IMG/VR virus record: IMGVR_UViG_3300044641_000974
Location: 1 to 26,652 of that record
Source of the DNA: a virus
Length of the DNA stretch: 26,652 nt
Strand: one strand, 5' to 3'
Part shown: positions 8,245 through 26,652 of the stretch, piece after piece
Numbering within the stretch: the first letter of the stretch is position 1
Layout of the letters: each line of letters opens with the position of its first letter
Notes under the pieces: model-generated
The model's database searches: none
Told to the model about the DNA's origin: nothing
Seen by the model: the letters and a program-made list of their open reading frames with translations, nothing else
Made by a program: the position numbers and the translations under genes

Positions 8245-8657
8245 CAGACTTAGCTGTTAAACAAGATCTCAACATACCTATATCTCAAAAGGTAGAGAAA
8301 TTGCTTGCACAAGTCCAGCAAATGCCACAAGTAGATTGCCAAACAAAACACTATTTTGGGCCTAGTATTTATATTAGAGAAGTAACTATGCCAGCTGGTT
8401 CGGTAGTTATTGGAAAGCCACACAGAAAAGATCATATGTGCGTTATGCTGCAAGGCAGAATGATTGTTGTAGACGCAGAAGGAAAACAAAAAGAACTTGT
8501 AGCTCCAATGACATTCGTTGGTAGTGCAGGACGGAAGGTAGCCTACATTCTAGAAACCACGGTGTTTCAGAATATTCTGGCTACCGATGAAAAAGATATA
8601 GATGTATTGGAAAATATGCTAGTTGATAATACCCAGCCTATGCTGGAAGGAGAATAG
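8241..8657 (+). CDS. Cupin-fold small protein
   Basis: 138 aa, ATGA overlap with the preceding gene. The centre is a single cupin-type barrel: YIREVTMPAGSVVIGKPHRKDHMCVMLQGRMIVVDAEGK, then LVAPMTFVGSAGRKVAYILE. Within it H82 and H85 (in KPHRKDH), a Gly at the turn and VMLQG follow the G(X)5HxH pattern loosely, so a metal site is possible but incomplete. Cupins of this size recur in the virion gene clusters of aquatic phages; their role there is unknown. Possibilities include a structural beta-barrel or a metal/sugar-binding enzyme. It sits between two structural genes and is co-translated. Confidence 0.72.
   Translation: MTDLAVKQDLNIPISQKVEKLLAQVQQMPQVDCQTKHYFGPSIYIREVTMPAGSVVIGKPHRKDHMCVMLQGRMIVVDAEGKQKELVAPMTFVGSAGRKVAYILETTVFQNILATDEKDIDVLENMLVDNTQPMLEGE
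8647..8652 (+). promoter_or_regulatory. Shine-Dalgarno AAGGAG fixing the start at 8659
   Basis: AAGGAG lies six bases before ATG 8659 and inside the end of the cupin gene. It decides between the upstream in-frame ATG 8623 (which overlaps the cupin gene and would add 12 residues) and ATG 8659, in favour of the latter. Confidence 0.75.
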
Positions 8658-8658
8658 T

Positions 8659-10353: not shown

Positions 10354-10788
10354 ATGTTACAGAGCGCCCAATCATTTGAAGCCAAACAGATAGCAGCAGA
10401 AATATTGCTTAGGGAAGTTGGCGTACAACCTTGTGGCGATTTGCAAGCCTTGTTTTGGGTAAATGAAGAGAATAAAATTGAATGGGTAGTAGGTTACACA
10501 GCTTTTATAGGAAAAACTTGCCAGATGCACGTTGTTAATTTAAGCGGTACAGCTTACTTACCAAAAAACTTTGTGCGTGGTGCGTTTGACTATCCGTTTA
10601 ATCATTGTGGTTTAGAAAAAGTTTTTGGTCTTGTAGACAGTAATAATGGTAGAGCTATGGGATATGACCAAAAATTAGGATTTAAAGAAGCCATACGGTT
10701 TGCAGAAATGCACGATAGTGGTGGCGATCTTGTAGTTTTTGAAATGAATAAAGCTGACTGTAGATGGATTAAGGAACGCAAAAAATGA
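10354..10788 (+). CDS. GNAT-family N-acetyltransferase, phage type
   Basis: 144 aa, ATG directly after the stop of the preceding gene; its own stop overlaps the next start. Visible GNAT order: N-terminal helix (SFEAKQIAAEILLREVG), antiparallel strands (LQALFWVNEENKIEWVVGYT), the central strand with MHVVNLSGTAYLPKNF, then a helix/strand/helix (YPFNHCGLEKVFGLVDS, NNGRAMGYDQKLGFKEAIRF). N-N-x-R-A-x-x-x-x-x-K-L-G-F is the typical C-terminal GNAT motif; the acetyl-CoA pyrophosphate loop is not classical (Q/RxxGxG/A is poorly preserved). The substrate is unknown. Phages with this layout often carry such a gene among virion genes, so a role in modifying a virion or host protein is plausible but inferred. 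Confidence 0.75.
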   Translation: MLQSAQSFEAKQIAAEILLREVGVQPCGDLQALFWVNEENKIEWVVGYTAFIGKTCQMHVVNLSGTAYLPKNFVRGAFDYPFNHCGLEKVFGLVDSNNGRAMGYDQKLGFKEAIRFAEMHDSGGDLVVFEMNKADCRWIKERKK

Positions 10789-13004
10789 GATATACACTAG
10801 ATTCAATGTTGCCTGAAAAGGCTTTCTCGCCACGCTTAGGTCGTGGTTTTGGCGGTGGTGGAATGACGCTTGAAGGCGGCAAAGGCGGCGGTGGTGGTAG
10901 CCCTGCTCCAGCACAGCAAACAGTTACTCAAACTTCTATTCCTGAGTATGCTGCTCCGTATGTTCAAACCATGCTTGGCAAGACTGAAGCATTAACAGAT
11001 ATTAACCAGAATCCATACCAAAATTATGGTGGTCAACGGATTGCACCATTTAACCCAAATCAACAACAAGCGTTCCAAAACACTCTTAATCAACAAACAG
11101 CAGGTCAGATAGGAGCAGGCACTGCTATGGCTGGGGTAGCTGGCTTAGGATCGTTGGGAGCAGGGGCAGATTATCGCAACATGGCAACCAATCCAAATGC
11201 AACCGCTGCGTACATGTCTCCGTACATGCAGAACGTTGTAGATGTACAAAAAAATGAAGCGTTCCGTGATGCACAGATACGTAATCTTGGTTCTAATCTA
11301 GGGTCTGCCCGCCAAGGAACGTATGGTGGAGCTAGACAATTGTTAGGTGAGCAAGAAAGAAATCGTGGTCTTCAACAGCAAATGGCTAACATTCAGGCTA
11401 CAGGATCACAGAACGCATTTAATGCAGCTCAACAAGCCCAACAGTTTGGTACAACCGCTGGACTACAAGGCTACAATCAAGCTATGCAAGGTGCAAGTAC
11501 ATTAGGTCAACTTGGATCTACTCAGTTTGGACAAGAGCAAGCAATTAATCAAGGCATCCAAAACGTTGGAAACATACAACAAGCACAGGCTCAACAAGGT
11601 CTAGATTTAGGTTATCAGGACTTCTTAAAGCAACGTAACTATCCTTATCAGCAGCTTGCCTTTATGTCTGATATGACTCGTGGCATTCCTTTATCTCAAT
11701 CTGCCCAGCAGGTATATACCGCACCTCCAAGTGCCGTATCTCAATTAGGTGGTCTAGGTATGTCTGCTTTAGGTATCTACGGCATGTCTGGTGGTTTTAA
11801 AGGAACTCCAGGTGCTGCAGAAGGTGGATTAATGGCTGCCAAGGCATACAAAGAAGGCGGTTTAGCTTATGCAGAAGGCGGCTATGCTAATGGCGGTCAA
11901 CCAATGGCTGGCGAAGATGTAATTAAGCAACTAACGGAAATGCTGGATAATCCAGGGTTAAGTCCATTAGAAGTAGCAGAAATTGAAAAGAAAATTATGA
12001 TGTATCAGCGCATGCTGGGTAATCCACAAGCGCAAGAAATCATGGCTCCAGCCTCAGGGCAATCAGGTATTGCTTCTATTGGTACTGGCGATATGGTTCC
12101 AGAAGACATGGCAGCTGGCGCTGGTGGCGGTATTGTGGCTTTTTCTGATAGAGGGGTAGTAAACCTAAAAGATCAGCTATCAGAAGATACAAAAGCCCGT
12201 AGAAAGTTATACGAAGATAGATTAGCCCAATCTTTTACTAACATGGCAAGTGACGAAACATTCAAAGAATCAAAAGCAGCAGAAGCGGAAACCCGTGCTG
12301 CAATCGCTGAAAGCAAGCGGAACAACCCATATGCAACTTTAGCTAGTACAGGCTTTGCATTGATGGCGGGTAGCGATGACCCAACAAAACGTGGCAATGC
12401 CTTGTCTGAATTAGGTTCTGCTGGTAAGGTTGGAATGGATACGTATTCAAAAGGCATAGCAGAACAATCAGCTTTGGCAAGGCAACTATCAGGTCAAGTT
12501 GAAAAACGTGAATCTGGTAAGTACGCTAGAGATTCTATAATGCACAATGCACTACAGTCTGCCGTCAATCAAATGGACACCAAAGAACTTTCTTTACTTA
12601 AAAACAAGACCGATCAAGCGCTATTGGCATCCCAAAAAGATTCTGCTTTGTATCTTAAGTACAGTAGCTTGTATAAGGATACATTGGACGATGTTAAAGA
12701 CAAGATGCTCAAGCAAGATAAGTTTGGTCAACAATTCCGTAAAGACCCAGCTGGATTTAATGCTGCAGCCGAGCAAGAAGCCAAAGCTATCCTTGGACCA
12801 AAAGTATTAGAAATACTTGGAAAGACAGCTCCTCGCCCTGTTGTTGATCCAGATCCAAGTAAGGCTAATCCAGCCCCAGGTGGAAAAGTTAATGCGCCAG
12901 TGGTTGTAACCATTCCAGCTAAAGATGGACAGCCAGCCAGACAAGTTCAGTTTGCAACAAAAGAACAAGCTGATCAATTTAAAAAGGCAGCTAACATAAA
13001 ATAA
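10785..13004 (+). CDS. Large Gln/Gly/Ala-rich internal virion protein
   Basis: 739 aa, ATGA overlap with the GNAT gene. The N-terminus is Gly-rich (residues ~20-40), then PEYAAPYVQTMLGKTEAL and YQNYGGQRIAPFNPNQQQAF, a motif set common in phage internal virion/tail proteins. A long Gln/Ala/Asn-rich helical region follows (~residues 75-300). Next come Gly motifs EGGLAYAEGGYANGG (~357-371) and GGGIVAFSDRG (~448-458), a predicted coiled-coil/helical region (DTKARRKLYEDRLAQSF to QSAVNQMDTKELSLLKNKT), and a Pro-rich linker before a short C-terminal strand-helix (VVVTIPAKDGQPARQVQFAT). Length, helix content and position just before the giant polyvalent gene suggest an ejection protein or tape-measure-like protein. 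No catalytic motif. Confidence 0.75.
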   Translation: MRYTLDSMLPEKAFSPRLGRGFGGGGMTLEGGKGGGGGSPAPAQQTVTQTSIPEYAAPYVQTMLGKTEALTDINQNPYQNYGGQRIAPFNPNQQQAFQNTLNQQTAGQIGAGTAMAGVAGLGSLGAGADYRNMATNPNATAAYMSPYMQNVVDVQKNEAFRDAQIRNLGSNLGSARQGTYGGARQLLGEQERNRGLQQQMANIQATGSQNAFNAAQQAQQFGTTAGLQGYNQAMQGASTLGQLGSTQFGQEQAINQGIQNVGNIQQAQAQQGLDLGYQDFLKQRNYPYQQLAFMSDMTRGIPLSQSAQQVYTAPPSAVSQLGGLGMSALGIYGMSGGFKGTPGAAEGGLMAAKAYKEGGLAYAEGGYANGGQPMAGEDVIKQLTEMLDNPGLSPLEVAEIEKKIMMYQRMLGNPQAQEIMAPASGQSGIASIGTGDMVPEDMAAGAGGGIVAFSDRGVVNLKDQLSEDTKARRKLYEDRLAQSFTNMASDETFKESKAAEAETRAAIAESKRNNPYATLASTGFALMAGSDDPTKRGNALSELGSAGKVGMDTYSKGIAEQSALARQLSGQVEKRESGKYARDSIMHNALQSAVNQMDTKELSLLKNKTDQALLASQKDSALYLKYSSLYKDTLDDVKDKMLKQDKFGQQFRKDPAGFNAAAEQEAKAILGPKVLEILGKTAPRPVVDPDPSKANPAPGGKVNAPVVVTIPAKDGQPARQVQFATKEQADQFKKAANIK

Positions 13005-13056
13005 TAGTAAAATAAATTAAGTTCAAAAAAAGCAGTAATTAATAGGACAAAATTTG
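13005..13056 (+). other. AT-rich gap before the giant gene
   Basis: The longest non-coding stretch in the window: 52 bases, strongly A/T-rich, between the internal virion protein and the giant ORF. It contains the AGGA RBS near 13044-13047. I see no hairpin followed by a T run, no convincing -35/-10 pair and no repeat. It may simply be a spacer that separates translation of the giant gene from the upstream operon. Confidence 0.6.
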
Positions 13057-16000
13057 ATGGCAGATATAGACAAGCTAATAGCTCAGTATGGCGGTAATAT
13101 TGTTCCAGAGAAAAAAGCAGAGCCATCAGATGACCTAGCCAAGTTAGCTTCTCAATTTGGCGGTACTATAGTTCCCCCGCAGGAATATGGCTTAGGCACT
13201 GGTTTAGCCGATGTTTTAAAAGGCCCATATGCAGGAGCAGTGTCTACCGTAGGTGGCATACCTATTGGTTTAGAATCTAGCGTCAGAAACATTCCACGCC
13301 AATTATTGGAACAAGAACGCATAGACGTACCTGAAAAGGTAGGTCCAATGACCTTTGCTGAAGAACTGATTAAGCAAGGACCAGCCCAGTTATTTTCAAA
13401 AACAGCAAGAGCTTTTGTTAAAAGCGCTACTGGCGAGTCTTTTGAGAAACAACAAGAACGTCAAAAAGACAATGAGATAGCTTTAGATCGTGTAATTTCT
13501 AAAATACCACGTATTCCAGGAGTAGAAGCTGCATCCGATTGGGGCCAGAAAAAATCAGAGGCTATTAGAGAAAGCAGATCAGAAATTGCAAAAGCTCGTA
13601 TTGCTGACTCCCAAGCAACTGGAGACATACTAAAAGCAGCAAAAAATCTTAGCCTAGAGGAGTTTAGCCTAGGTAAAGATCCATCAGTTTATGGTTATTT
13701 ATTGCAAGGCAGTGAAGTATTAGGTTCAATGCTGCCAATTATTGCTACTGCACTTATAACTAAAAAAGCCCCTGCATTACAAACTAAAGCAACAGCAACC
13801 GTTGGTTTTGGCATGGGTGCTGGAGAAGCAGTTCAAGATACTCGTCAACTGGTTGCAAAGATGTCTGACTTAGAGTTGGCACAATCAAGCCCTTATTTTG
13901 CAGAAATGCTTAAAAAAGGTGTTCCAGCAGAAGAAGCAAGAAAAGTAGTTACCGATAAAGCAGCTGAATATGCAGCTCAACTTCAAGGCTCTGTATCTGC
14001 TTTTGGTAGCGTAATAACTGGAAAATTAATTACTGGTCAGTTTGACAAGCTGCTGACTGGAAAAATTAAAAACCGTTTAGTACGTATTGCAATTGGCGGT
14101 TCTGCTGGTATGTTAGAAGAGGGTACACAAGAGTTCTTAGAAGGCGTAGCTAAAAATCTTGGTATTAACAAAGCAATTATTACTGAAATTGGTGCAGATT
14201 CTTTTGCTAACTTTATATTGGGTGCTATAGGCGGTGCTGGTCCAGGTGCATACCGTGGAGCAGTAGCCAAAACGGAGGAAGAGGCAAATGCCCCTAAACC
14301 TATCAAGCCTACCAAAGAAGAGATAGATGCGCAGATGATGGCAAGCCTCACTGGAACACCTGTTCCACCTGTTGCTCCTACTGCTGCTGTGCCTCCTAAT
14401 GTTTCACCTGCGCCTCCAGCTGCTCCAGCTGCCATAGCAGAAGAAGATGATGTAGCTCCATCATCCGTAGTTCCTCCTAGCGTAGTAGCTCCAGTAGCTG
14501 CTATGGTATCTACAGTAGGTTTAGATCCAGCCACTGCCCAGCAAGTAGAGAGTCTTAAAGCCGAACTTCAGATGATTGAAAGTAGGAAATCAGATCCTAC
14601 TAGATTATTGAATGAAGGCGAATTAGAGTTCTATGCAGAAAGAGAAGCAGAGCTTGCCAAGGAAATTACTGCTTTAATAAGTCCAAAGGCTCCAGAAACT
14701 CTAGTAACTCCAATAACCCCAGAAGCTCCAACTGCTCCAGCTGCGCCCATAGAAACCACTGGTGGGCCATCAAGCGTTGGTTTAAAAGCCAATGCAGAAA
14801 TGCAGGTAAATCAGTTAATAGCCGATGCGGAAGCAACAGGTCAAATTGATATTGATGCGATGAATAATCTGGCTCGTGATTTAGACCTTGAGCCATCAGA
14901 AGATCCAATGCAGACTGCCTCTGCAATTATGGACAAGATAAGCTCTATAGAAGAGCCTGTATCTGTAGCTCCAGTAGCAGAGGAAACAGTTACTAAGCCA
15001 GAAGCTGTTACTACAACTGGAGGAGCAGCACTACCAACGCCCCCTATGGGAGAACGAATTGCTGATAGCCAAGCTCGTATGGAAGAGCAGTTTAAGGTTG
15101 CTGCTGAAGCTATTGGAAGCGATCAAAAGCTATTAGAAAAAGAATTAAAAGAAGCAAAATCTGTTTTAACTAATAAATATCAAGAACAGTTTAAAAATTC
15201 TACTTTTGATTTTGAAAGGAAAAGATTAACTTCTGCTGATGGAAAGCTGGCTTTGCAGTGGGAAAACGATGGAAAAACTAATCGAGGTAGCGTAAAAGTA
15301 GTTCCAATTGAACTTAGCAAAGAAGAGCAGATTGATATTAACAAAGCTCGTCAGGAAGAGCAAAGAGCTGCTGCAGAAGCTGAGAAGAAAGCTAAAGAAG
15401 AAGAAGTAGCTAAACCTACTGGTGGACCAGCTATTACTACTGGTGGACCATCTACTCCTAAGAAGGTAGGACCAACAGAAGAAGAAAAGAAAGCTAAAGA
15501 AGAAGAGAAGACGGCTAGGGAAGAAGAGAAAAAAGCCAAAGAAGAAGAAAAAGCTCAAAAAGAAGAGCAAAAAAAGAAGTTAGCTGAATTAAATACAAAC
15601 CCTATGAAGGTTGCCATGGAAACTGGCAATGCGGATGCGGTTGCAACACTCTTATACGGCAAAGCTGTTGATGAAAATTTATTCCCAGTTATCTTCCCAG
15701 AAGAGATGTTATTGCGTATTCCAGTTGAAACAAGTCTGGTAAGTCAGATTGAAGATCAGCTAGTTAAGAACAAGTTCCGTATTACTGACAGAGCAGTTCC
15801 AGCAACAACAGACGACCCTTCCTATGTTGGTCCTGAAAGAATTACCATATCTGCGTTATATAACCCAGAGAAAGTAAGCATACAGGGTGGCGGTGCTGAG
15901 TTTTTTAATAACCGCAAAGGACAAATTACTGCTGCTCCATTACCAAAAGATGCCACAGAAAAACAAAAAGATGCGTTAGTAACTGAACTGTTAGATTTGG

Positions 16001-19000
16001 CAAGTCCTAAAAAATTACTAGACATTGAATCTAATCCAAATAATACATTTGGCGCATTGATGTTTAAAGAGGGATTAGTAGCCAAAATAAAATCACCTGG
16101 AGACTATCTTTTTGAACTAATTAATTTAAGTACAAGAGCTGGTGGACAATTTAATACTTACATTCCTTCTAAAGCGGGATATCGCCAAGCCATTAAATTA
16201 GTTATAGATGATGGTAAAGAAGAGGTAGTTAGAAAACTATTAGTAGATTATGTAACGTCCTTACAAAGCCTACAAGCTGTATTCAATGAACATTCTAATG
16301 TTACGCCTTTATACGAAGCGTTGATGGCAAAGTATGTAAAGGATGCGAATGCAGACCGAGTACCTGATATATATACCCCAGAGGGTGTAGATCTAAAAAA
16401 TAAAATTGACGATGTTCGGTTGTATCAATACATTCCAAGATTATTTTCTTTGTTTAGTCTTGATGAAAACTCTACCGATCAAACAAACAGAATTGTAAAA
16501 AAGGACGCAGAAACCCCGCCAGAGCTAGGTAACATTATCAGACGTGGTATGCGTGACCATCGTCAGGGTCGAGATGTAGATGTTCAAGACTTTTTACAAA
16601 CATTTAAATTCTTACCAGGCGGTATTGACTTTGGTAACTGGGTTAACCAGTCAGAGCGTACAGCGCATTTAAACGCTATTTACGATGCAATGTTTGACCT
16701 AGCAGATATTGCTGGCATAGCACCAGAGATGCTGGGATTGAATGAAAAGTTAAAACTAGCTGTAGGTGCGCAGGGTCGTGGCGGTAAAACTGCGGCTTGG
16801 TTTGTTCCTCAATACAACGAAATCAACTTAACAAAAACAAAAGGTGATGGATCATTAGGGCATGAGTGGCAACACGCATTAGATTGGAATTTAAGATTAG
16901 TTCCTAACGGAAGAACTCTAATGTCCGATACAGCAGCTACTTTACAGAGAATGATTACTGTAGAAAAAGTAGAAAGTAACTTGCGTTCAATCCTAACTAA
17001 TACAGCGAATAGTGAAAGCAACCGTAATACACCGCCTAAAAAAGCATTCTTTAATGCTATTTCAAATAGTCGATATGGTGAAGCCGACATTTACCGCAGC
17101 TCTTTTACTGAGACACAATTTTACAAAGATGCTTCGCTATTAGATAGAGGTAAAGAGAAAGACTATTGGAGCACTCCAGTAGAAATGTTATCTAGGGCTT
17201 TTGAGTCTTTAACATTTGATCTATCAAAAGGTGGCTCTCCATATTTAGTTGGACCAACAGTAGCGGATGGATACGTAACCAAGAAAAATGGCTATCCTGG
17301 CACTACTTATCCAGCTGGTAAAGAACGCCCTCAAATCAATGAAGTATATCAGCAGATGATAGACCAAATTGATCCTAAAACTTTACAGATAAAAACATAC
17401 AAATTAGAAAATCAAATTATTGAGGTTGAAGAGTTAGGGTATGCCGTAGTTGATCAGTATTACCTTGATCGTGGTCGACTTGGTGGTTTGAATTGGTTTA
17501 AAACAAAAGAAGAAGCAAAGCAAGCCAAAGAACAACTTGACGGCACAGAAGCAATATTAACGCCACGGCTAATGCAAATTAGCAAGGTTAATCAAAGCAT
17601 TATTAACATGGCACAACGTATTGATGCCATCATGGAAGAAATGGGCTTGTTCAAGTGGCCTGAAATTAAGAACGGTTCAATGGCTGAATCAATGTTCTAC
17701 CACATGCGTCAAGGGTGGTGGCCAAAAAACAACCGTGAATTAGCTGAGTATGGCATTAAAGCGTACTTGCAATCGCCTGAGTTATTGGGATTTAACCCTG
17801 CCAAGAATCAAAAAGAGATAGACAACTACAAGATTGCTGATTTTGAAGGTGATCGAGTCAAATTAAAGCAAACTCAAGAAGACTTTGAGGCAGCGGCTGT
17901 ACGATTCATCAGCCAAGTCATTACCGATATGAGAGCAGAAGGCTCTGATACCAAAGCTATTTATGACCATATTGTTGGTTTATACCAAAATCAACCTACA
18001 TTAGATGTTAAGTCAGTATTAAGCGTAACTAATAATGCTTACTCTACGCCATTGCCAATTGCATACCTTGCTGGCATGTTATCTCGTGTTAAATCTACTA
18101 CAACAGTATTAGATCCTACTGGCGGTAATGGAATGCTAGTGGTTACGGCTAACCCTAAAAACGTAACAACCATTGAAATAGACCCACACCGTGTTAATAA
18201 TTTGAAGTTAATGCAGATGGGGGATGTAATTGAAGGGGATGCATTAGTAAAAATAAAGGACATCCAAGCTCAAAAGGTAGACGTAGTTCTTGCAAACCCT
18301 CCATTCGGAGCGCTTCCATCGCCTGTAGATGTTAAGTCTTGGACAGGACAAAATTACAAGATTGGTGCAATAGATCAACTCATTGCAGCCGAATCATTGC
18401 GAACAATGGCAAATGACGGTAGAGCAGTCTTGATTCTGGGATCTCATCTCAAGCCAAACACTATTACATCAACAGATAGAGTGTTCTTAAATTGGTTATA
18501 CGGCAATTACAATGTTGCCGACCATTATGAAATTGCTGGCAATTTATATCGTAAACAAGGTGCGTCTTTCCCGTTGCGTGTCTTGGTTATTGCTGGTAGA
18601 AATCAAACGGATAATGTTTACCCAAATGATTTAGTCGTTAACAGAATAACGTCATTTGATGAATTATGGAGCAGATATGTTCAAACCAGTGATCGTAGCG
18701 AACAAGTCGTGGTGGGTACCAGAAAACCACGGACGCCTACTGGCGGTGCAGATAGACCAACCACAGCAGTACCAACAGGCGATACTCGACAAGATGGCGA
18801 ACCTAGCGGAGGAGTGGGGAGGGCTGGAGAGGGCGCTGGCATCAGCGAACAATTACCTACGACAGGAGGGGTCAACGTACCTACCGATGCCAGAGGACGT
18901 GGAACAGCTGGTGGAGTTCGTGATACAGAACAACAGCAGGATAGCGGAGATGGTCAACGAGGGGGACCCAGAGGTGGCAAACCCAGCACCGCCCCAGGAA

Positions 19001-22000
19001 GCGAAGTACCAAGTGGAAAACCAGGAGATGAACTGGGAGGACTTTCTGACGTAGATTTAGACAACATATTTGAAAGTCTAAGTAAGAAAACCAAAACAGG
19101 AACAACGACAGAAAAAGCGCCTAAAGGTACTGGTGGTCCAAGAGCGCCTAGAACAACAGAGCCTAGAGCTAAAACAGTTATTCCTAAGGAATTAGAAGGT
19201 TTAGGGCTTGAAAGTTTGCTTGATGAATTGGATGCCGCATTAAATGGTAAGGCTCCAAAGGTAACAATTACAGAGCCAACTCCAGAAAACAGCGATGTGC
19301 GTCTAGACAAGCAAGCTCAAGAAGCTATGGATCGCATAGCTCAAAATGAAAAGAATACTAGCAATGATCCTGACAGCGGACTTTATTCTAGAAAAGACAG
19401 TCAAGAGTATGCCAACGTAAAACCAATCATTCAAAAGGTTTGGGATGCTGTTGGACAAAAGGTTACAGATGTTAAACAACGTATTCAAATAGTTTATGAG
19501 CTATTAGTTAAAAAATTTGGTAATTTAATTAAAAACCAACTAAGAACATATATTGATGAGCTAAGAACAACAATACAGAAACGACCTAAAAATCAAACCC
19601 CAGTACAAAGTGAACCAATTGATACAGAATCAAGAGTTGTTTATTTAGGCAAATCAAGGTTTGCAAGCGATGGTATTTACTTGCCTCGTGCTCAATCACA
19701 GCATGCGTATACGGCATTAGAAAATCTAGAAGCACAAGTTGGCAATATAGATGAGTTTGTTGCTAAAGAATTAGGTTATTCATCTATTCAGCAAATGGCA
19801 AAAGGTCTTGCTGGCTATCAAATCGATGCTCTAGGTTTAGCAATTCAAGCCAATAAACTTGGAAAAGGCTTCATTATTGGAGACGATACTGGCGTAGGTA
19901 AAGGTAGAACAGCTGCCGCCATGATTGTCTGGGCAAAGAAACAAGGCAAAGTTCCAGTCTTTGTTACCCTCAGTGAATCTCTGTATACCGCAATGTATGC
20001 CGATTTAATTAACATTGGTCATGGCGATATTAAGATAGGTATGACTAATGCTGGATCAGAAATAATTAAGGACGTTGGAGAAGGAAAGACGGAATTAGTA
20101 TTTAAAAATAAAGTAGGCGATGATACAAAATTAACCAGCTATATATCAAAAAATAGAAAATTACCGCCTGGCGTAGATGTTCTATTTACTGCCTATTCTC
20201 AGTTAAATGGCGGTGTAGGTTCAGCAGCAAGACAATCAGCAATAGCATCATTAGTAGCAAGTGGCGATGCTGTATTGATTATGGACGAAGCCCATAACGC
20301 TGCTGGTACGCCAAGCGACAAAGACTCAATGGGTCAAAATGCCTTCTTTATGTCTTTGTTAACAGGTGAAAATCTATTGGGCAAAGGTGAGGAAGTTCCT
20401 GAAAGCTGGAAGCCACCTCCTACTGTTTACTTATCTGCTACGTTTGCCAAGCGTCCAGATAACATGCCTTTGTATATTCACACAAATTTACGTTACGCTG
20501 CAGATACTCCACAAGATTTAACAGCCTTGTTTGGTAAAGGCGTTAAAACAGATGTTTTACAACAAGTGTCTTCAGAGATGTTGGTAGAGTCTGGCTCAAT
20601 GATCCGCAGAGAGAGATCGTATGAAGGCGTAACAATGGATTTTGTTATTGATGATAACAATACCGCAAGAGATACCAGAGAAGTTGACAAAGTTACAGAA
20701 ATACTAAGATCCTTAGTCAATGCAGACCGAGCTTTAAAAGAATGGCTAAAAACACCTGCTGGTGCGGAAGCAGTAGTTAAATTGGGTCCTCCAGGATCAT
20801 ATATGGGTGCCGTTGGACCAACAGCATTTACTGAAGCAAAAGCCAACACATTTACTTCTGTTGTGCATAACTACATAGGATCTTTGCTACTTTCAACTAA
20901 AACTCAAACTGCTGTAGACATGGTTGTTGACAAACTTAACAACAATGAAAAAGTAGTTGTTGGATTGCAAAATACCAACGGTAGCGCATTAGAAGATTTC
21001 GTTGCACAAAACAATATTAAAAAAGGCGATGACATTCCTGACTTTGGATGGCAGACATTAATTAAACGTGCCGTAAAGTCCACCACAAAAGTAACGTTAA
21101 AATCCGCTACTGGCGATAAAAAAATGGATCAGGTTGTATATGTTCCTTATGAGGTAATGCCACCGACTATCCGAGCTGGTTACCAGAACGTTGACAATGC
21201 TTTACAAAATTTCCAATCCAATTTGCCAGCCGCACCTATTGATTTCATACGCACAGAGTTAGAACAAAAGTATGTATGGACTATCAATGGCAAAACTCAA
21301 GTTGGGGACACACCACCCCAAGGTGTAAAAGCAAGACACCTAGTTGTAAAAGAGATTACAGGTAGAAAAAATGGCATAGATTACTCTGGAGACATACCGA
21401 AGTATGTCACCTTAGATAACCCTAGCCGTACAAGCATGATTTCGTCATATCAAAATGGCGAAGAATCTAAATCAGGTCCAATTGATGTATTAATCATTAA
21501 CTCCGCAGGCGCAACTGGAATATCGTTACATGCCTCAGTGGATGCATTTGATCAACGCCCACGGCATATGATTGTCCTCCAGCCACACGGAGATATCAGC
21601 GTCTTTATTCAGCTATTAGGAAGAATACATAGAACAGGTCAGGTTGAATGGCCTTCATTTACTATGTTAGCAACAGGAATACCAGCTGAAAGACGAATCT
21701 TAGCCATGTTGCGTAAGAAGTTGTCTAGCTTGAAGTCCAATACTTCTGGTGGATCTAGCAGTACAAAAGTGGATGGTGTTGATTTTATTAATATGTATGG
21801 CGATGTAGCAACAGCCGAATACTTGAATGAGCACCAAGACATTCAAGCCTTTTTAGGCGTACCTCAATATCAAGATCCTGCCGAAGCTGCTGGTTCTGAC
21901 TTGGCTCATAAAGCATCTGGTACAGCAGGGTTGTTAGCTTCTGCCGACCAAAAAGAGTTTTTTGATTCCATTGAAGCTAGTTATATAGCTGAAATAGACC

Positions 22001-25000
22001 TAAGGAACGCTACAGGAACTAACGCATTAGAAAGAAGGGTATTGCCGTTAGAAGCTGAAATCATTAAAGAAAACTTAATAGAAGAAGGCTTAGATAGTTC
22101 AAATCCATTCTTAACTGATGTGGTAATGGCACAGTTTAACGTGGATATTATTGGCTCAATACCTACTGTCCAAAACATAAAAGATGACATCAATCTTGCA
22201 TTGAACGGCAGGACAGCGCAGGAAGTTGTCAATGAGATAGAAACAGAGTTAAGCAGCGTATATATTGAAGTAAGAAATCAAATTGTTCTTAAACAACAAG
22301 CACTTGATGAAGCTATCAAAAATCCATTAGCTACTGAAAAAGACATAGAAGAGCTAAGTAAACAAAAGACAGCTTTAGATAATCAATTTTCCACGCTAAA
22401 TGATCGTAAAGAAAGAACGCTAGAGGCATTAAGTAATACTTTTGCTATTGGAAATGGATTTGACTCTTTTATCGTTAACAGTGTTCCAGCTGCTGCTGTA
22501 GTTACAGGCATAAAGGTAGATAAAGCAAGGATAGGAAAGTCCAAGACTGGTAATCCTTATTCACCATCAAACTTCCAAATCATTATCAAACGAAATATTC
22601 CTGAAGGCAGGATATCTCCAACTTTGGCAACATTAGAGGGCACATCAATTGAACGATCTAATCCTTCAAGAAACCCTCCTTTAGAGGATTGGTTTGCCTT
22701 AAAGTCGGTTACTGGTGGAAGAACAACTAGATACATAGCCTTAGGAAACATACTAAGAGCTGCTCAGTTGTTTGATTCTAGTGGCGGTGAGATTGCTAAA
22801 TTTACTTTACAAAATAGTAAAGAATCAATATCTGGCGTAGTTATGCCATCTAAGTATGTGCCAGTGGCAATTAGCGAACAACCAGTTCGGTTAAGAAACC
22901 CAGAGTCAGCAGTTCAATATTTGTTAGCCGTTTGGGATTCTTTATTGCAGAAAAAGTATGAAGATACTCAAATGGAGACATACAAAGATTTAAGTAGTAG
23001 TCTTCAACCTTTAATGCTTTCAAATTTGCCAAAAGCACCTGAAAGCATGAGTAATGTTGTATTGCGTGGTTCTGCACAAACATGGCAATTGCGGGTTGAT
23101 CCGTATCGACCAAATAGTTTTAAAGTAACTATTGCAGGAGATGTTCCAAAGAAATTCATAACTGCACCAATACTTAAAACGTTAATTCCAGGCGGTCTTG
23201 CCAAAAAAGGCAACAAAGCATATGAAATGTCTGCTGGTGATTCATTAACAGATCCAGAAAAAATAATAGCTTTAGTCAAGTTTTTACATAAAAATTTCCC
23301 AGCTACAGTAGAAGCAGATAACGCTACGTTTGCCCGTGAAGTAATGAAAGTAGAGTTTGACTACAGTGAAAGTAAAAAAGGTTTAGCATCACGGGGACCT
23401 GCAGAAGGCGGTCAAACAGTTGCAGCTGTTGAAGCACAAGTTGTTCCTATAAAAGGAATTACAGTTAAGGTTCTTCAATCAGTGGATGAATTGCCAGACA
23501 ATACTGCTCCAGCGGACGTAGAAGGTATGTGGCTGTCTGGTAGAACTGTGTACCTAATTGCAGACAACCTACCAAATGAGAGAAGAGTACAGGAAGTATT
23601 GGCGCACGAGGCTGTTGGTCACGCTCTTTTAGAAGAGATGTTGGGACCAAAACTAATGGCAGAGTTGGTCAGAAATGTCCAAAACTTAGAAAAGACTTCT
23701 AGTCTTGTCAAAGAAATAGCCGCCAAAGTAGACCGCACACAGCCTGGCTTATCACCAGACCGTAGAGCAAAAGAAATTGTTGCGAACATGGCAGAGCGTG
23801 GCATGTCCAAAATAGGTCTAATACAGCGTGTTATTCAAGCCATTCGCAATTGGTTAAGAAGCCAAGGATATACGATTAATTTCTCTGATTTAGACATCAT
23901 TGAGCTTTTATACTTTGCCGAAAACTATTTTGATCGTAAGGGATCAGAAAGATTCCCTTCTTTAAAACCTGCACAGGCAAAGACTCAAGCAGAGATTAAC
24001 AGAGAGCGTCAGCAACAAAAGCGGGAAAAGGCTGCTGGATACTTTAGTAGAGATGACCAAGACAAAAATACTGAAGACTTTGACAAGCAATTCTCGGAGG
24101 ACGGCTTTAATAATGCCCCATTGAGACCGTCATCTACAGTAAAAGATACATTACTTGGCGGTGCAAAACAGGCAAAACAGGCTTACGATGCCACTATAGA
24201 TGCTCCAGCCATGGCATATAAAGCCATGAGTGGCAAACTGCTGCGTGGCATTACCTATGTTCGTAATAAGAACATTTGGTTTGGCGCTGGGTTGGAATTG
24301 GCTGAGAAGATCACCCAAAAGGCAGGTGGATTAGCTGGCAAGTTGCGTGATGGCGAAGGTAGAGCTATGGCATCTATTGCCATTACCAATGCCTTACACG
24401 CTGGTAATATTGCTGTAGAGGTCATTAGACGGGGTTCATTGGCGTTCAATACAGAGAGCCAGATGTTCCAAGCTATCATTCGCCCATTCTCCATGGCTAA
24501 CGTCATCATTGAAAAGTCAAAGTTGATAGCCAGAATTGGTGAGCAACGTGCCAACGACATGATTCAGATGTACTTTGAAGCCAAACGCTCTAAGAGTATT
24601 AATGATGAATACCAGAAGATTGAGCAGGAAATTGCTCGTTTAGATGCACAGCGCCTTGAGCCAGGACTGGCACCAGATCAGCTTAATCAAGTTCTTAATG
24701 ACCTTTTGGATGCTAAACAAGACTTGAAGCAGATTGGTATTGCAAAGAAGAAAGTTCGCATGGACGAACAGCAAATAGATTTCTACAGCAAATTAGATGA
24801 AAAGAATCCAGAACTAAGCAAGATGATGGAAAACTGGACTAAAGTCAATCAAAACATGATTGACATGATGCTGTTCAGCAAAATCATTAGTAAAAAACGT
24901 GCAGAACGACTCAAGGGTATTAAGGACTATGTGCCTTGGTATCGTATCCAAGACGATATGGAAGACGTTCACGACACAAGCACTATGGGTGGTGTGCGTA

Positions 25001-26652
25001 GCAATACCAATATTGCCAAAGAGAAGAAGTTTAAAGATACAGAAGTAAATAAGGATATCGATGACATTGTGGATAACATGCTCCACAACGTAATGACTAT
25101 TACCCGTAACTCTATGCGTAACCACGCTGCCAACCGTGTAGTTGACTCTTTTGCAACCCGTGTTAAAGGGAAAATAGCAGTCTTTACAAAAGAAGGATCT
25201 ACAAAAAATGGCGCAGTTCGATTAAACATCTTACGCAATGGTCGTAGAATCATCGTTGAAATCAAAGATCCATTGATTGCCGAGTCTGTAACTGGCATGG
25301 AAGATATGGCTATTCCTGGCATGGATATCCTTGGCATGGCAGCAAACGGTTTACGCAGAGGTATTACGCTATGGCCTGAGTTCCAAGTAAGACAGCTATT
25401 TATGGATGCCCCAACAGCTGCGCTGGTTTCTGGAGTGAAGAACCCAACCAAGCTCTGGGGTGAAGTATTTGTTGGTTTTGCAAAAGCAGTAAAACAAGGC
25501 GATCCAATAGTTGAACTCTTGCAATCCTATGGAATAGGTGGATATCAGTCCTACACCAGAACTCCAGAAATGGAACTGAAACAAAAGATTGGACTAATTG
25601 AAAAGAGCAAATTTGATTGGTTAATGAACAAATTAGATCAAATTGGTGATGCCTCAGATATGGCGCAGCGTGTGGCTATATACAATCGTGTCTTAAAGGA
25701 AACTGGCGATCAGATGCAAGCGCTTGTAGCTGCCAACAACATTATTGATTTTAAAAAGCGTGGTTCAGGTCGTTTAGCTCAGGCTTTAACTAGAACTGTA
25801 TCCTTTATGAATGCCTATGCCCAGCAGATTGATGTGCTGGCAATGACTTTGGCTGGCTCTGGATACACTGGCAAGAGCAAAGCTGCAGCCTTGGCACAAC
25901 TAGGCAAGACGGCAGCGCTGTTTTCTTTCTACGTTATGATCTATTCATGGCTTGTCGGTGGGGAAGATGATTACGAAGAGCTAGATGATCAGACAAAACT
26001 GCGTAATATTGTCATTCCAAAGTCTTTAATGCAGCACATTGGCATTAATGAGACATTGCTAATCCCAATGCATACTTCGGCTAGTTTCTTCTTTAAATCT
26101 ATCCCAGAAGGAACTTACAACATAGTAGTAAAAGAGGGAACTAATAACGAGATTGATGGCACTCGTATTCGTAAGGCTCTTGCTGCAGCCGTTATTGACT
26201 CATTATTGGGTCCTAACCCAGTTCCAACTGGTGCTAAACCATTAATAGAAATTGGTTTAAACCGTAGCTTCTTTACTGGCAGAGCTATCACTCCTAAGTC
26301 TTTGGAAAATATTGATGCTGCAGAGCAATATAATGCCACTACCTCTGAACTAGGCAAAATTCTTAGTGCTTTGACTGGAAACCCTTTTAATGAAAAGCGT
26401 GTATTGAACCCAATTGAAGCAGATCACTTGGTTCGCAGCTTGTTTGGAACTACTGGCGCAGCTGTCCAGTGGGGAAGCAACATATTCTCTGGTGATCGCC
26501 CAACTCCAAGGGACAAAGACAATCCTTTCTACGGCAGCTTCATTGCAGCTGATGTAGGTCGTGCGCCAGAAGACTTGTTCTACTCGTTTAAAGACAAGGT
26601 AGATAGCAAATACAATACTTATCAGAGCCTACTCAAGGATGCTAAGTTTGAA
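13057..26652 (+). CDS. Giant polyvalent virion protein (LPD1, adenine MTase, Strawberry-notch helicase, zincin, LPD38); 3' partial
   Basis: One frame stays open from ATG 13057 (AGGA nine bases upstream) to the window edge: at least 4532 aa. Visible layout: residues 1-430, helical, with two short Q-[YF]-GG-x-I-V-P repeats at 10-17 and 33-40; Pro/Ala and TGGP linkers plus a KAKEEEK coiled coil (~430-850); an LPD1-type region with HEWQH at 1269-1273; a DNA adenine methyltransferase (~1660-1880); a Gly-rich linker; a Strawberry-notch-type helicase (~2190-3280); a zincin-like module with HEAVGH (3517-3522); a LPD38-like C-terminus (~3670 on). Such proteins, like phage P1 DarB and the >4000-aa virion proteins of Bcep22-type phages, are packaged and ejected with DNA to resist restriction and act on the host. 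The absent 3' end prevents a full domain count. Order and motifs are read directly; virion location is inferred. Confidence 0.92.
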   Translation, partial: MADIDKLIAQYGGNIVPEKKAEPSDDLAKLASQFGGTIVPPQEYGLGTGLADVLKGPYAGAVSTVGGIPIGLESSVRNIPRQLLEQERIDVPEKVGPMTFAEELIKQGPAQLFSKTARAFVKSATGESFEKQQERQKDNEIALDRVISKIPRIPGVEAASDWGQKKSEAIRESRSEIAKARIADSQATGDILKAAKNLSLEEFSLGKDPSVYGYLLQGSEVLGSMLPIIATALITKKAPALQTKATATVGFGMGAGEAVQDTRQLVAKMSDLELAQSSPYFAEMLKKGVPAEEARKVVTDKAAEYAAQLQGSVSAFGSVITGKLITGQFDKLLTGKIKNRLVRIAIGGSAGMLEEGTQEFLEGVAKNLGINKAIITEIGADSFANFILGAIGGAGPGAYRGAVAKTEEEANAPKPIKPTKEEIDAQMMASLTGTPVPPVAPTAAVPPNVSPAPPAAPAAIAEEDDVAPSSVVPPSVVAPVAAMVSTVGLDPATAQQVESLKAELQMIESRKSDPTRLLNEGELEFYAEREAELAKEITALISPKAPETLVTPITPEAPTAPAAPIETTGGPSSVGLKANAEMQVNQLIADAEATGQIDIDAMNNLARDLDLEPSEDPMQTASAIMDKISSIEEPVSVAPVAEETVTKPEAVTTTGGAALPTPPMGERIADSQARMEEQFKVAAEAIGSDQKLLEKELKEAKSVLTNKYQEQFKNSTFDFERKRLTSADGKLALQWENDGKTNRGSVKVVPIELSKEEQIDINKARQEEQRAAAEAEKKAKEEEVAKPTGGPAITTGGPSTPKKVGPTEEEKKAKEEEKTAREEEKKAKEEEKAQKEEQKKKLAELNTNPMKVAMETGNADAVATLLYGKAVDENLFPVIFPEEMLLRIPVETSLVSQIEDQLVKNKFRITDRAVPATTDDPSYVGPERITISALYNPEKVSIQGGGAEFFNNRKGQITAAPLPKDATEKQKDALVTELLDLASPKKLLDIESNPNNTFGALMFKEGLVAKIKSPGDYLFELINLSTRAGGQFNTYIPSKAGYRQAIKLVIDDGKEEVVRKLLVDYVTSLQSLQAVFNEHSNVTPLYEALMAKYVKDANADRVPDIYTPEGVDLKNKIDDVRLYQYIPRLFSLFSLDENSTDQTNRIVKKDAETPPELGNIIRRGMRDHRQGRDVDVQDFLQTFKFLPGGIDFGNWVNQSERTAHLNAIYDAMFDLADIAGIAPEMLGLNEKLKLAVGAQGRGGKTAAWFVPQYNEINLTKTKGDGSLGHEWQHALDWNLRLVPNGRTLMSDTAATLQRMITVEKVESNLRSILTNTANSESNRNTPPKKAFFNAISNSRYGEADIYRSSFTETQFYKDASLLDRGKEKDYWSTPVEMLSRAFESLTFDLSKGGSPYLVGPTVADGYVTKKNGYPGTTYPAGKERPQINEVYQQMIDQIDPKTLQIKTYKLENQIIEVEELGYAVVDQYYLDRGRLGGLNWFKTKEEAKQAKEQLDGTEAILTPRLMQISKVNQSIINMAQRIDAIMEEMGLFKWPEIKNGSMAESMFYHMRQGWWPKNNRELAEYGIKAYLQSPELLGFNPAKNQKEIDNYKIADFEGDRVKLKQTQEDFEAAAVRFISQVITDMRAEGSDTKAIYDHIVGLYQNQPTLDVKSVLSVTNNAYSTPLPIAYLAGMLSRVKSTTTVLDPTGGNGMLVVTANPKNVTTIEIDPHRVNNLKLMQMGDVIEGDALVKIKDIQAQKVDVVLANPPFGALPSPVDVKSWTGQNYKIGAIDQLIAAESLRTMANDGRAVLILGSHLKPNTITSTDRVFLNWLYGNYNVADHYEIAGNLYRKQGASFPLRVLVIAGRNQTDNVYPNDLVVNRITSFDELWSRYVQTSDRSEQVVVGTRKPRTPTGGADRPTTAVPTGDTRQDGEPSGGVGRAGEGAGISEQLPTTGGVNVPTDARGRGTAGGVRDTEQQQDSGDGQRGGPRGGKPSTAPGSEVPSGKPGDELGGLSDVDLDNIFESLSKKTKTGTTTEKAPKGTGGPRAPRTTEPRAKTVIPKELEGLGLESLLDELDAALNGKAPKVTITEPTPENSDVRLDKQAQEAMDRIAQNEKNTSNDPDSGLYSRKDSQEYANVKPIIQKVWDAVGQKVTDVKQRIQIVYELLVKKFGNLIKNQLRTYIDELRTTIQKRPKNQTPVQSEPIDTESRVVYLGKSRFASDGIYLPRAQSQHAYTALENLEAQVGNIDEFVAKELGYSSIQQMAKGLAGYQIDALGLAIQANKLGKGFIIGDDTGVGKGRTAAAMIVWAKKQGKVPVFVTLSESLYTAMYADLINIGHGDIKIGMTNAGSEIIKDVGEGKTELVFKNKVGDDTKLTSYISKNRKLPPGVDVLFTAYSQLNGGVGSAARQSAIASLVASGDAVLIMDEAHNAAGTPSDKDSMGQNAFFMSLLTGENLLGKGEEVPESWKPPPTVYLSATFAKRPDNMPLYIHTNLRYAADTPQDLTALFGKGVKTDVLQQVSSEMLVESGSMIRRERSYEGVTMDFVIDDNNTARDTREVDKVTEILRSLVNADRALKEWLKTPAGAEAVVKLGPPGSYMGAVGPTAFTEAKANTFTSVVHNYIGSLLLSTKTQTAVDMVVDKLNNNEKVVVGLQNTNGSALEDFVAQNNIKKGDDIPDFGWQTLIKRAVKSTTKVTLKSATGDKKMDQVVYVPYEVMPPTIRAGYQNVDNALQNFQSNLPAAPIDFIRTELEQKYVWTINGKTQVGDTPPQGVKARHLVVKEITGRKNGIDYSGDIPKYVTLDNPSRTSMISSYQNGEESKSGPIDVLIINSAGATGISLHASVDAFDQRPRHMIVLQPHGDISVFIQLLGRIHRTGQVEWPSFTMLATGIPAERRILAMLRKKLSSLKSNTSGGSSSTKVDGVDFINMYGDVATAEYLNEHQDIQAFLGVPQYQDPAEAAGSDLAHKASGTAGLLASADQKEFFDSIEASYIAEIDLRNATGTNALERRVLPLEAEIIKENLIEEGLDSSNPFLTDVVMAQFNVDIIGSIPTVQNIKDDINLALNGRTAQEVVNEIETELSSVYIEVRNQIVLKQQALDEAIKNPLATEKDIEELSKQKTALDNQFSTLNDRKERTLEALSNTFAIGNGFDSFIVNSVPAAAVVTGIKVDKARIGKSKTGNPYSPSNFQIIIKRNIPEGRISPTLATLEGTSIERSNPSRNPPLEDWFALKSVTGGRTTRYIALGNILRAAQLFDSSGGEIAKFTLQNSKESISGVVMPSKYVPVAISEQPVRLRNPESAVQYLLAVWDSLLQKKYEDTQMETYKDLSSSLQPLMLSNLPKAPESMSNVVLRGSAQTWQLRVDPYRPNSFKVTIAGDVPKKFITAPILKTLIPGGLAKKGNKAYEMSAGDSLTDPEKIIALVKFLHKNFPATVEADNATFAREVMKVEFDYSESKKGLASRGPAEGGQTVAAVEAQVVPIKGITVKVLQSVDELPDNTAPADVEGMWLSGRTVYLIADNLPNERRVQEVLAHEAVGHALLEEMLGPKLMAELVRNVQNLEKTSSLVKEIAAKVDRTQPGLSPDRRAKEIVANMAERGMSKIGLIQRVIQAIRNWLRSQGYTINFSDLDIIELLYFAENYFDRKGSERFPSLKPAQAKTQAEINRERQQQKREKAAGYFSRDDQDKNTEDFDKQFSEDGFNNAPLRPSSTVKDTLLGGAKQAKQAYDATIDAPAMAYKAMSGKLLRGITYVRNKNIWFGAGLELAEKITQKAGGLAGKLRDGEGRAMASIAITNALHAGNIAVEVIRRGSLAFNTESQMFQAIIRPFSMANVIIEKSKLIARIGEQRANDMIQMYFEAKRSKSINDEYQKIEQEIARLDAQRLEPGLAPDQLNQVLNDLLDAKQDLKQIGIAKKKVRMDEQQIDFYSKLDEKNPELSKMMENWTKVNQNMIDMMLFSKIISKKRAERLKGIKDYVPWYRIQDDMEDVHDTSTMGGVRSNTNIAKEKKFKDTEVNKDIDDIVDNMLHNVMTITRNSMRNHAANRVVDSFATRVKGKIAVFTKEGSTKNGAVRLNILRNGRRIIVEIKDPLIAESVTGMEDMAIPGMDILGMAANGLRRGITLWPEFQVRQLFMDAPTAALVSGVKNPTKLWGEVFVGFAKAVKQGDPIVELLQSYGIGGYQSYTRTPEMELKQKIGLIEKSKFDWLMNKLDQIGDASDMAQRVAIYNRVLKETGDQMQALVAANNIIDFKKRGSGRLAQALTRTVSFMNAYAQQIDVLAMTLAGSGYTGKSKAAALAQLGKTAALFSFYVMIYSWLVGGEDDYEELDDQTKLRNIVIPKSLMQHIGINETLLIPMHTSASFFFKSIPEGTYNIVVKEGTNNEIDGTRIRKALAAAVIDSLLGPNPVPTGAKPLIEIGLNRSFFTGRAITPKSLENIDAAEQYNATTSELGKILSALTGNPFNEKRVLNPIEADHLVRSLFGTTGAAVQWGSNIFSGDRPTPRDKDNPFYGSFIAADVGRAPEDLFYSFKDKVDSKYNTYQSLLKDAKFE
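16510..17240 (+). other. LPD1-type domain with HExxH zinc motif (in the giant protein)
   Basis: Within the giant CDS, residues ~1152-1395. Diagnostic stretches are FKFLPGGIDFGNWVNQ, IYDAMFDLADIAG, LAVGAQGRGGKTAAW, INLTKTKGDGSLGHEWQHALD and DYWSTPVEMLSRAFES. HEWQH (H1269, E1270, H1273) is a canonical HExxH. Family knowledge: the LPD1 domain is found in phage and plasmid polyvalent proteins and carries exactly this 'KGxGSLxHEWxHALD' core. A metallopeptidase-like function is possible but has not been shown for the family to my knowledge. Confidence 0.8.
18031..18700 (+). other. N6-adenine-type DNA methyltransferase domain (in the giant protein)
   Basis: Residues ~1659-1881. YSTPLPIAYLAGMLSRV is the motif-X-like helix placed before motif I (DPTGGNG, 1686-1692); then IEIDPHR (acidic ribose-binding strand), a GDAL element, and VVLANPPFGALP with the catalytic NPPF at 1747-1750. 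This order is that of amino-methyltransferases acting on adenine. A C-terminal strand region (RAVLILGSHL; LRVLVIAG) completes the Rossmann fold. All motifs are intact, so activity is plausible. In an ejected protein it could modify incoming DNA before host restriction acts; that use is inferred. Confidence 0.85.
18668..18671 (+). promoter_or_regulatory. Shine-Dalgarno-like GGAG before the nested ORF
   Basis: GGAG with a five-base spacer (CAGAT) before ATG 18677. No start of the giant frame uses it, so it bears only on the nested 125-aa ORF. A four-base match can arise by chance, so the weight is modest. Confidence 0.35.
18677..19054 (+). CDS. Candidate overprinted gene inside the giant ORF's Gly-rich linker
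   Basis: 125 aa in the +2 frame from ATG 18677, with GGAG at 18668-18671 five bases upstream (a longer form could start at TTG 18656 or ATG 18659). The main frame here encodes only a Gly/Thr/Pro/Arg-rich linker between the methyltransferase and helicase. In contrast, the +2 frame reads like a folded acidic, helical protein: FKPVIVANKSWWVPENHGR, then ILDKMANLAEEWGGLERALA, PMPEDVEQLVEFVIQNNSR, ending NQEMNWEDFLT. Five Trp, no signal peptide or membrane segment, no family recognised. Caution: a Gly-rich frame automatically yields Glu/Ala/Leu in the shifted frame, and minus-strand frames here are also open, so coding by chance is a real alternative. Confidence 0.35.
   Translation: MFKPVIVANKSWWVPENHGRLLAVQIDQPQQYQQAILDKMANLAEEWGGLERALASANNYLRQEGSTYLPMPEDVEQLVEFVIQNNSRIAEMVNEGDPEVANPAPPQEAKYQVENQEMNWEDFLT
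19620..22900 (+). other. Strawberry-notch-type SF2 helicase/ATPase region (in the giant protein)
   Basis: Residues ~2189-3280. Motifs in order: Q-like LAGYQIDALGLAIQ; Walker A GDDTGVGKGRT (2275-2285, Lys2282); VLIMDEAHN (DEAH 2410-2413); YLSATFAKRP (motif III); then a C-terminal RecA domain with LIINSAGATGISLHAS, RPRHMIVLQP and QLLGRIHRTGQ (2852-2862, motif VI). The GxGVGKGR Walker A and the spacing are those of the Strawberry notch (SNO) AAA_34/Helicase_C_4 pair. The part from ~2900 to 3280 is the usual SNO C-terminal extension. All core residues are present, so ATP hydrolysis is expected. Whether it translocates on DNA or remodels protein-DNA complexes cannot be told. Confidence 0.85.
23380..23920 (+). 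other. Zincin-like polyvalent module with HEAVGH motif (in the giant protein)
   Basis: Residues ~3442-3621. The core EVLAHEAVGHALLEEMLG has H3517, E3518 and H3522. The spacing is HExxxH, one residue longer than canonical HExxH, as in many phage/plasmid polyvalent proteins with an '(A)HExxGH' helix. Upstream strands (GMWLSGRTVYLIADNL) and a downstream helix ending in QRVIQAIRNWLRSQGYTI with a Asp-rich LPD-type tail (FSDLDIIELLYFAENYF) match the usual surroundings. A peptidase that processes the polyprotein or host factors is a hypothesis; no catalytic evidence beyond the motif. Confidence 0.6.
24060..26652 (+). other. LPD38-like C-terminal region (in the giant protein), continues past the edge
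   Basis: Residues ~3669-4532+. It contains a coiled coil (~3850-3910, KIEQEIARLDAQRLEPGLAP onward), YVPWYRIQDD, a NSMRNHAANRVVDSF helix, RRGITLWPEFQVRQLFMDAP, SDMAQRVAIYNRVLKETGD and NIIDFKKRGSGRLAQAL with VSFMNAYAQQID. A membrane-like or packed helix (TAALFSFYVMIYSWLVGG) comes next, followed by the acidic DDYEELDDQTKLRNIVIP. These correspond to the Large Polyvalent Protein-associated Domain 38, which usually closes giant phage proteins and has been proposed to help virion packaging or delivery. The assignment rests on motif recall; the function is unproven. Confidence 0.7.

Follow-up and report, generated by a model that had tools for sequence, protein, structure and literature searches.

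The 26,652-bp window analysed here, which is an entire IMG/VR record, carries at its right end the gene of a giant polyvalent protein (13057..26652, + strand; 4,532 codons, open at the contig edge and with about 75 codons missing), and this is in our judgement likely to be a short-tailed phage's third ejection protein, in the position of P22 gp16, onto which DarB-like enzymes have become fused and which is packaged in the virion and injected. Its first segment is swapped for unrelated ones between relatives, which from the sequences suggests an exchangeable loading tag. Neither the gp16 slot nor the swappable N-terminus figured in the first-pass annotation of this DNA. Quite how phages choose the proteins that enter the head and then the cell is poorly understood.

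The open reading frame and its relatives

The plus-strand frame runs without a stop from 13039, just past a stop, to base 26652, with its first ATG at 13057 (the point from which residues are numbered here) and a TTG at 13054. With the base composition of the ORF itself, giving a stop probability of 0.067 per codon, openness over the 4,532 codons from the ATG to the last base has a chance of about 10^-136. As the window is the entire record, the end of the frame at the right edge is simply the contig end, and because the close relatives L002 (90%) and L003 (83% C-terminal identity) run on for about 75 codons past the homologous point before stopping, a full length of about 4,607 aa is expected.

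The same uninterrupted frame is present on 17 related contigs, complete in 16 of them, with sizes of 3,741-4,683 aa that fall into a near group (4,547-4,683 aa, one cut at 4,453) and a distant group (3,741-3,948 aa). The complete relative G002 (64,083 bp, with a 124-bp end repeat) devotes 21% of its genome to a giant of 4,550 aa. Against four relatives dN/dS is 0.08-0.16 in every enzymatic and C-terminal domain, rising to 0.29-0.66 in two linkers; purifying selection on the enzyme domains is strong. A falsely long frame arising from an assembly artefact, a chimera or a hidden frameshift might be suspected in one metagenomic contig with an incomplete right end, but the 17 related open frames, that of the complete G002 among them, and the low dN/dS exclude this in practice and leave it a negligible probability; the uninterrupted frame of at least 4,532 codons claimed by the first-pass annotation, which had named a frameshift or internal stop as what would overturn it, is thus confirmed. 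Scanning 84,980 genomes of bacteria and archaea by pattern gave no relative. On the contig of the related G011 (L054, L057) the first 100 bases are repeated at 62,655 and the ejection genes occur twice with differences, probably reflecting redundant contig ends with strain variation.

The gene neighbourhood and the gp16 slot

The giant is the last gene of an ejection cluster and stands at the place of P22 gene 16. Upstream on the same strand, in order, lie a P22 gp10-like stabilization/head-closure protein of 682 aa (5300..7348, +; phrog_3287, E 2.7e-61), a Gly/Ala-rich protein of 565 aa from the ATG used (8656..10353, +), a GNAT acyltransferase within the ejection gene cluster (10354..10788, +; phrog_4470, E 7.5e-25) and, directly before the giant, a Gly/Gln-rich ejection protein of 739 aa (10785..13004, +; phrog_4287 DNA ejection protein, E 6e-15). 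The Gly/Ala-rich protein has no PHROG match, its C-terminal part is kept at the same place in relatives, and it is a probable member of the ejection cluster. This gene order recurs elsewhere with ordinary ejection proteins at its end in other phages, and with the 4,667-aa DarB-like gp70 in BcepIL02. The setting is that of late genes, as is characteristic of polyvalent proteins, with stabilization and ejection genes directly upstream. The GNAT gene itself recurs in the ejection clusters of unrelated phages (BcepIL02 gp65, L105 3056-3463, MW202796, MW202879 and Itty13). Further to the left, window positions 2971-3972 have a G+C of 0.50, a reversed GC skew and a Cys-rich protein with a signal-like start, and frames overlap there on both strands.

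By TerL the window's group lies near phage 023Pt_psg01, DSL-LC04 and the Pelagibacter phages HTVC027P/HTVC023P. The candidate gp16-slot proteins in three of these phages are of 868-1,386 aa, lie near the end of the structural gene block and gave no Pfam domains, which suggests that a giant either stands in for an ordinary ejection protein or extends one. The proteins of about 1,950-2,015 aa in L093, L094 and L147, which start with a cassette of type D or C and have LPD38, and in which no methyltransferase or helicase match was found, may be steps on the way from such ordinary proteins to the giants.

An ejection domain shared with the N4 virion RNA polymerase

Residues 205-412 of the giant (13669..14292, +) match phrog_2206 (E 7e-13) and form a predicted ejection domain whose homologue is the N-terminal domain of the virion RNA polymerases (vRNAP) of N4 type. 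In HHalign a profile of eleven giants matched that of eight N4-type vRNAPs at E 1.8e-9, while 20 column shuffles gave E 0.37-0.99 and the reversed profile 0.47, and BcepIL02 gp70 matched the vRNAP profile at 2e-9 and that of the giants at 1e-5. The vRNAP of DEV/N4 is reported to be ejected as the counterpart of gp16 (PMC10925440), and the domain supports packaging and injection of the giant independently of its enzymes. A correspondence between the C-terminal half of the giant and the C-terminal domain of N4 vRNAP was dropped when profile comparison gave no similarity, and no RNA polymerase domain is among the Pfam matches of the giant. Given the DNA ejection gene (phrog_4287) as its neighbour and this N-terminal domain, packaging and injection of the giant appear well founded; it probably travels in the virus head and enters the host with the DNA.

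Enzyme and LPD domains

Beyond a low-complexity linker (aa 460-820) the giant has the make-up of a DarB-like polyvalent protein, with a zincin/LPD1 region, an adenine methyltransferase, a Strawberry-notch ATPase, an HExxxH site and LPD38. The first of these (aa 1162-1438; 16540..17370, +) combines a CLCA_X-like zincin region with the motif HEWQH (16861-16875), matching NCBIfam NF041907 at E 1.8e-31 yet under its curated cut-off, and an LPD1 domain (17140-17370; PF18796, E 1.3e-11); the HEWQH-region motif occurs in 13 of 18 giants. The predicted adenine N6 DNA methyltransferase (aa ~1590-1900; 17824..18756, +; phrog_3820, E 6e-8) has motif I DPTGGNG and motif IV NPPF (18295-18306). The Strawberry-notch type SF2 ATPase (aa 2267-2926; 19855..21834, +) is made up of AAA_34 (19855-20646; PF13872, E 3.4e-16) and Helicase_C_4 (21346-21834; PF13871, E 1.4e-19), with Walker A DDTGVGKG, DEAH and QLLGRIHR motifs, and LPD38 (PF18857, E 3.6e-18) occupies aa 4303-4491 (25963..26529, +). 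LPD1, LPD38, AAA_34 and Helicase_C_4, all named for profile searches by the first-pass annotation, pass their Pfam cut-offs, and the adenine methyltransferase that it proposed was recovered as an N6-MTase core with both motifs. A weak POTRA match, below the Pfam cut-off, was disregarded.

The methyltransferase motifs are kept across the giants save for motif IV in G015. The G015 giant (L064) has HPPASTL in place of NPPF, with motif I and the frame intact, and its methyltransferase may be inactive; as the gene stays open there despite the loss of motif IV, phages of this kind may not need methylation.

A second putative zinc site, HEAVGH of the HExxxH form (aa 3517-3522; 23605..23622, +), aligns with HELMH of the distant giants and HEAFH of BcepIL02 gp70, and HEXXXH peptidases have been described by Iyer et al. 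(PMC5512222). AlphaFold models of aa 830-1570 and 2945-3700 were poor (pLDDT 67 and 65) and matched no solved structure or fold, so neither putative zinc site gains structural support and both are put forward on motif and family evidence. The combination of methyltransferase, Strawberry-notch ATPase and two zinc centres in one chain had earlier been called unusual, which is overstated since similar mixes are published (PMC5512222, PMC10269572).

Large pieces of the chain also appear to have moved as units. In the giants of G012-G015, G018, G019 and G021 the enzyme core is 60-80% identical to that of the window and the C-terminal ~830 residues are only ~17% identical, and giants with a distant core have 50-60% identity in the C-terminal module, pointing to domain exchange on a large scale.

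Exchangeable N-terminal cassettes

Each of the 18 giants starts with one of seven unrelated short cassettes (A-G) of 30-60 residues. That of the window, type A (aa 1-40; 13057..13176, +), has two copies of D-x-x-KL-x-x-Q[YF]GG-x-[IV]VP. The cassettes of G012 (D) and G015 (E) differ completely and 173 of the next 192 residues are identical, as are 166 of 194 for G014 (D) and G019 (F), whose cassettes likewise differ completely. The window (A) has 119 of 191 residues in common with G001 (B) and 105 of 178 with G003 (G) after different cassettes; these three make up one clade of the N-terminal domain carrying three cassettes. The converse is also found, the window and G017 (both A) having 28 of 36 cassette residues in common and only 55 of 182 afterwards. 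On the ATPase tree of the 18 giants at least eight cassette changes are required.

Cassettes of this kind are not confined to giants. A search of IMG/VR for types A, C and D yielded 75 loci, some of them not independent, and in all 75 the cassette opens the frame; 31 loci of type D and several of type C belong to proteins that do not resemble giants, mostly of 490-680 aa. One of these, L152, matches a DNA-ejection PHROG (E 1e-14), and those inspected lie mostly downstream of a stabilization gene and further ejection-like genes. For types B and G tblastn gave no match, and type B was found later by DNA pattern: of 14 frames that contain NPFAKYV and have 250 codons or more, it starts 12, and some of these are proteins of 490-520 aa in the same slot. 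Among named phages tblastn returned weak single matches (E 0.5-4 for type D; 2e-4 to 0.4 for type F), lying in 8 of 8 records examined no more than a few residues from the start of the gene in the third ejection position, several of these genes being annotated DNA transfer, ejection or '16'. Type E starts such a gene in one named-phage case; its match in phage Itty13 is weak and inside a gene rather than at the start. Spurious matches from the type A and C search of named phages were an Erwinia one, antisense to an annotated gene, and an E. coli record whose frame lacks a cassette-like start. Five of the seven types (B-F) thus also start ordinary gp16-slot proteins in other phages, and type A was found on giants only, not on other gp16-slot proteins.

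P22 gp16 and its relatives, which are of ~600-720 aa and enzyme-free, occupy the same gene slot as the giant and similarly swap their N-termini; beyond the cassette no similarity to the giant was found. Up to residues 53/64 the gp16 proteins of P22 and HK620 show no relationship (alignment score 27; shuffled mean 29.8), and past this breakpoint 38 of 40 and 76 of 80 positions are identical. Sf6 and HK620 gp16 have their start in common (40/54) but not the following 200 residues (57/151). The HK620-type start is found in 53 phage records, the annotated ones mostly as DNA transfer, ejection or injection proteins, and the P22 gp16 N-terminus is weakly like type C (E 0.05, top of 1,440 ORFs). Mosaicism of P22-type ejection genes is known, and the literature searched, which covered few subscription journals, yielded no account of it in terms of an N-terminal module that is exchanged.

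Proposed function and alternative explanations

A scheme for the giant can be put together from its parts, in which packaging, the role of the cassette and self-cleavage are all things that we infer. The N-terminal cassette, roughly the first 40 residues, would load the giant into the procapsid; the chain would then go through the portal unfolded, with the N4 vRNAP-like domain forming part of an ejection channel and leading it across the envelope, either before the DNA or together with it, and would refold inside the host. There the adenine methyltransferase and the Strawberry-notch ATPase could work on the phage DNA as it arrives, most likely to counter restriction by the host, and the chain may be divided into functional pieces by one or both of the zincin-type sites. 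For the anti-restriction action we see an even chance. That the giant is instead an unpackaged intracellular protein of DNA modification or replication, beside late genes by chance, would fit enzymatic domains that act on DNA, but is very improbable given the ejection domain, the gp16 slot with its conserved gene order, and N-terminal cassettes common to giants and annotated ejection proteins.

What the cassette does is a closer matter, and that it is a capsid-loading element is a reading to which we lean slightly. The closest functional precedent is P1 DarB, whose first 30 residues are enough to bring a reporter into P1 heads (PMC9024508). P22 hybrids carrying the HK620, CUS-3 or Sf6 trio make plaques, and Sf6 gp16 alone gets into P22 particles without functioning (PMC10883804), so one capsid accepts different cassettes. 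A P22 gp16 N-terminal fragment of 171 residues was not seen in particles (PMC8402733), which disfavours the idea that in that protein an N-terminal signal is enough for loading. Nor is there support for the cassette changing together with scaffold or portal, the scaffold gene being assigned by acidic make-up and position between the portal and capsid genes: G014 and G019 are 95.6% identical in scaffold and 95.0% in portal despite the change from D to F, and G012 and G015 (D/E) 84% and 90%. As scaffold and portal stay 84-96% identical across the swaps, either several cassettes are read by the same partner or the cassette has its role at a later stage. The latter would make it a post-loading specificity element, for ejection order, pairing with the other ejection proteins, or a host inner-membrane or superinfection-exclusion protein, its exchange being driven by conflict with host or prophage. 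The nearly identical scaffolds and portals speak for this, as does the non-functional Sf6 gp16 in P22 particles, and SieA of P22 targets gp16 and gp20 (PMC10883804). However, the SieA escape changes are at gp16 residues 532 and 546, away from the N-terminus, and N-terminal loading signals are in use in P1 DarB and the T4 internal proteins. We regard action after loading as rather unlikely.

With the cassette taken as a loading element, a broader and still tentative proposal, to which we give somewhat less than even chances, is that short-tailed phages hold a common pool of cassettes of ~30-60 residues which load and launch any gp16-slot protein. If true, the same capsid reads unrelated cassettes, the gp16 slot is a general delivery port with a cargo ranging from ordinary ejection proteins of 500 aa to enzyme chains of 4,700 aa, and the cassettes are short portable signals for phage protein delivery.

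Comparison with known systems

The size and theme of the giant are already known from the Bcep22 group (proteins of ~4,660 aa from genes of ~14 kb), Pavtok gp27 and the polyvalent proteins. In the Bcep22 group a 13,994-bp DarB-like gene encodes a helicase and a methylase (PMC10269572), and Pavtok gp27 is of 5,007 aa (PMC8402733). Iyer et al. (2017) described dyads of adenine methyltransferase and SWI2/SNF2, Strawberry-notch versions of these, and one to five zincin-like peptidase domains per protein (PMC5512222); the giant has in common with their polyvalent proteins disparate enzymes in one chain, LPD1/LPD38 and zincin-like sites. The closest counterpart is BcepIL02 gp70 (4,667 aa; Bcep22 group, with CSP3 orf43), of similar length and likewise the last ejection-cluster gene after a GNAT, which has the N4 vRNAP-like ejection domain, an adenine methyltransferase, an SF2 helicase, an HExxH near aa 3,600 and LPD38. 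It differs from the giant in its SLT transglycosylase and LPD3, in an ATPase of SNF2 rather than Strawberry-notch type and in its N-terminus, and no LPD1 match was found in it. BLASTP between the two gave short weak stretches only rather than full-length similarity (best E 0.008), and their profiles match only in the N-terminal domain and the C-terminal (LPD38) module. None of 50,697 phage records was found to have the entire domain set of the giant following an exchangeable cassette, the best partial cover being 35% of its first 2,981 residues.

The capsid-targeting signal of T4 internal proteins is cleaved off. In P1 DarB and the T4 internal proteins, as proposed for the cassette of the giant, a protein destined for injection is brought into the head by a short signal at its N-terminus; the loading signal of P1 DarB is known, but a consensus common to the Dar proteins was not found (PMC9024508). 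The natural swaps of unrelated cassettes on near-identical proteins, P22/HK620 included, are ready matched pairs for testing such signals. N4-type vRNAP resembles the giant as a giant gp16-equivalent ejection protein with a homologous N-terminal domain and an HExxH in its C-terminal part, whereas its cargo is an RNA polymerase and its C-terminal domains are dissimilar. What is new here is the cassette exchange and the connection made by slot and by ejection domain between the giant, vRNAP and gp16; the swaps tie enzyme-bearing giants, ordinary gp16 proteins and the N4 virion RNA polymerase to a single delivery slot.
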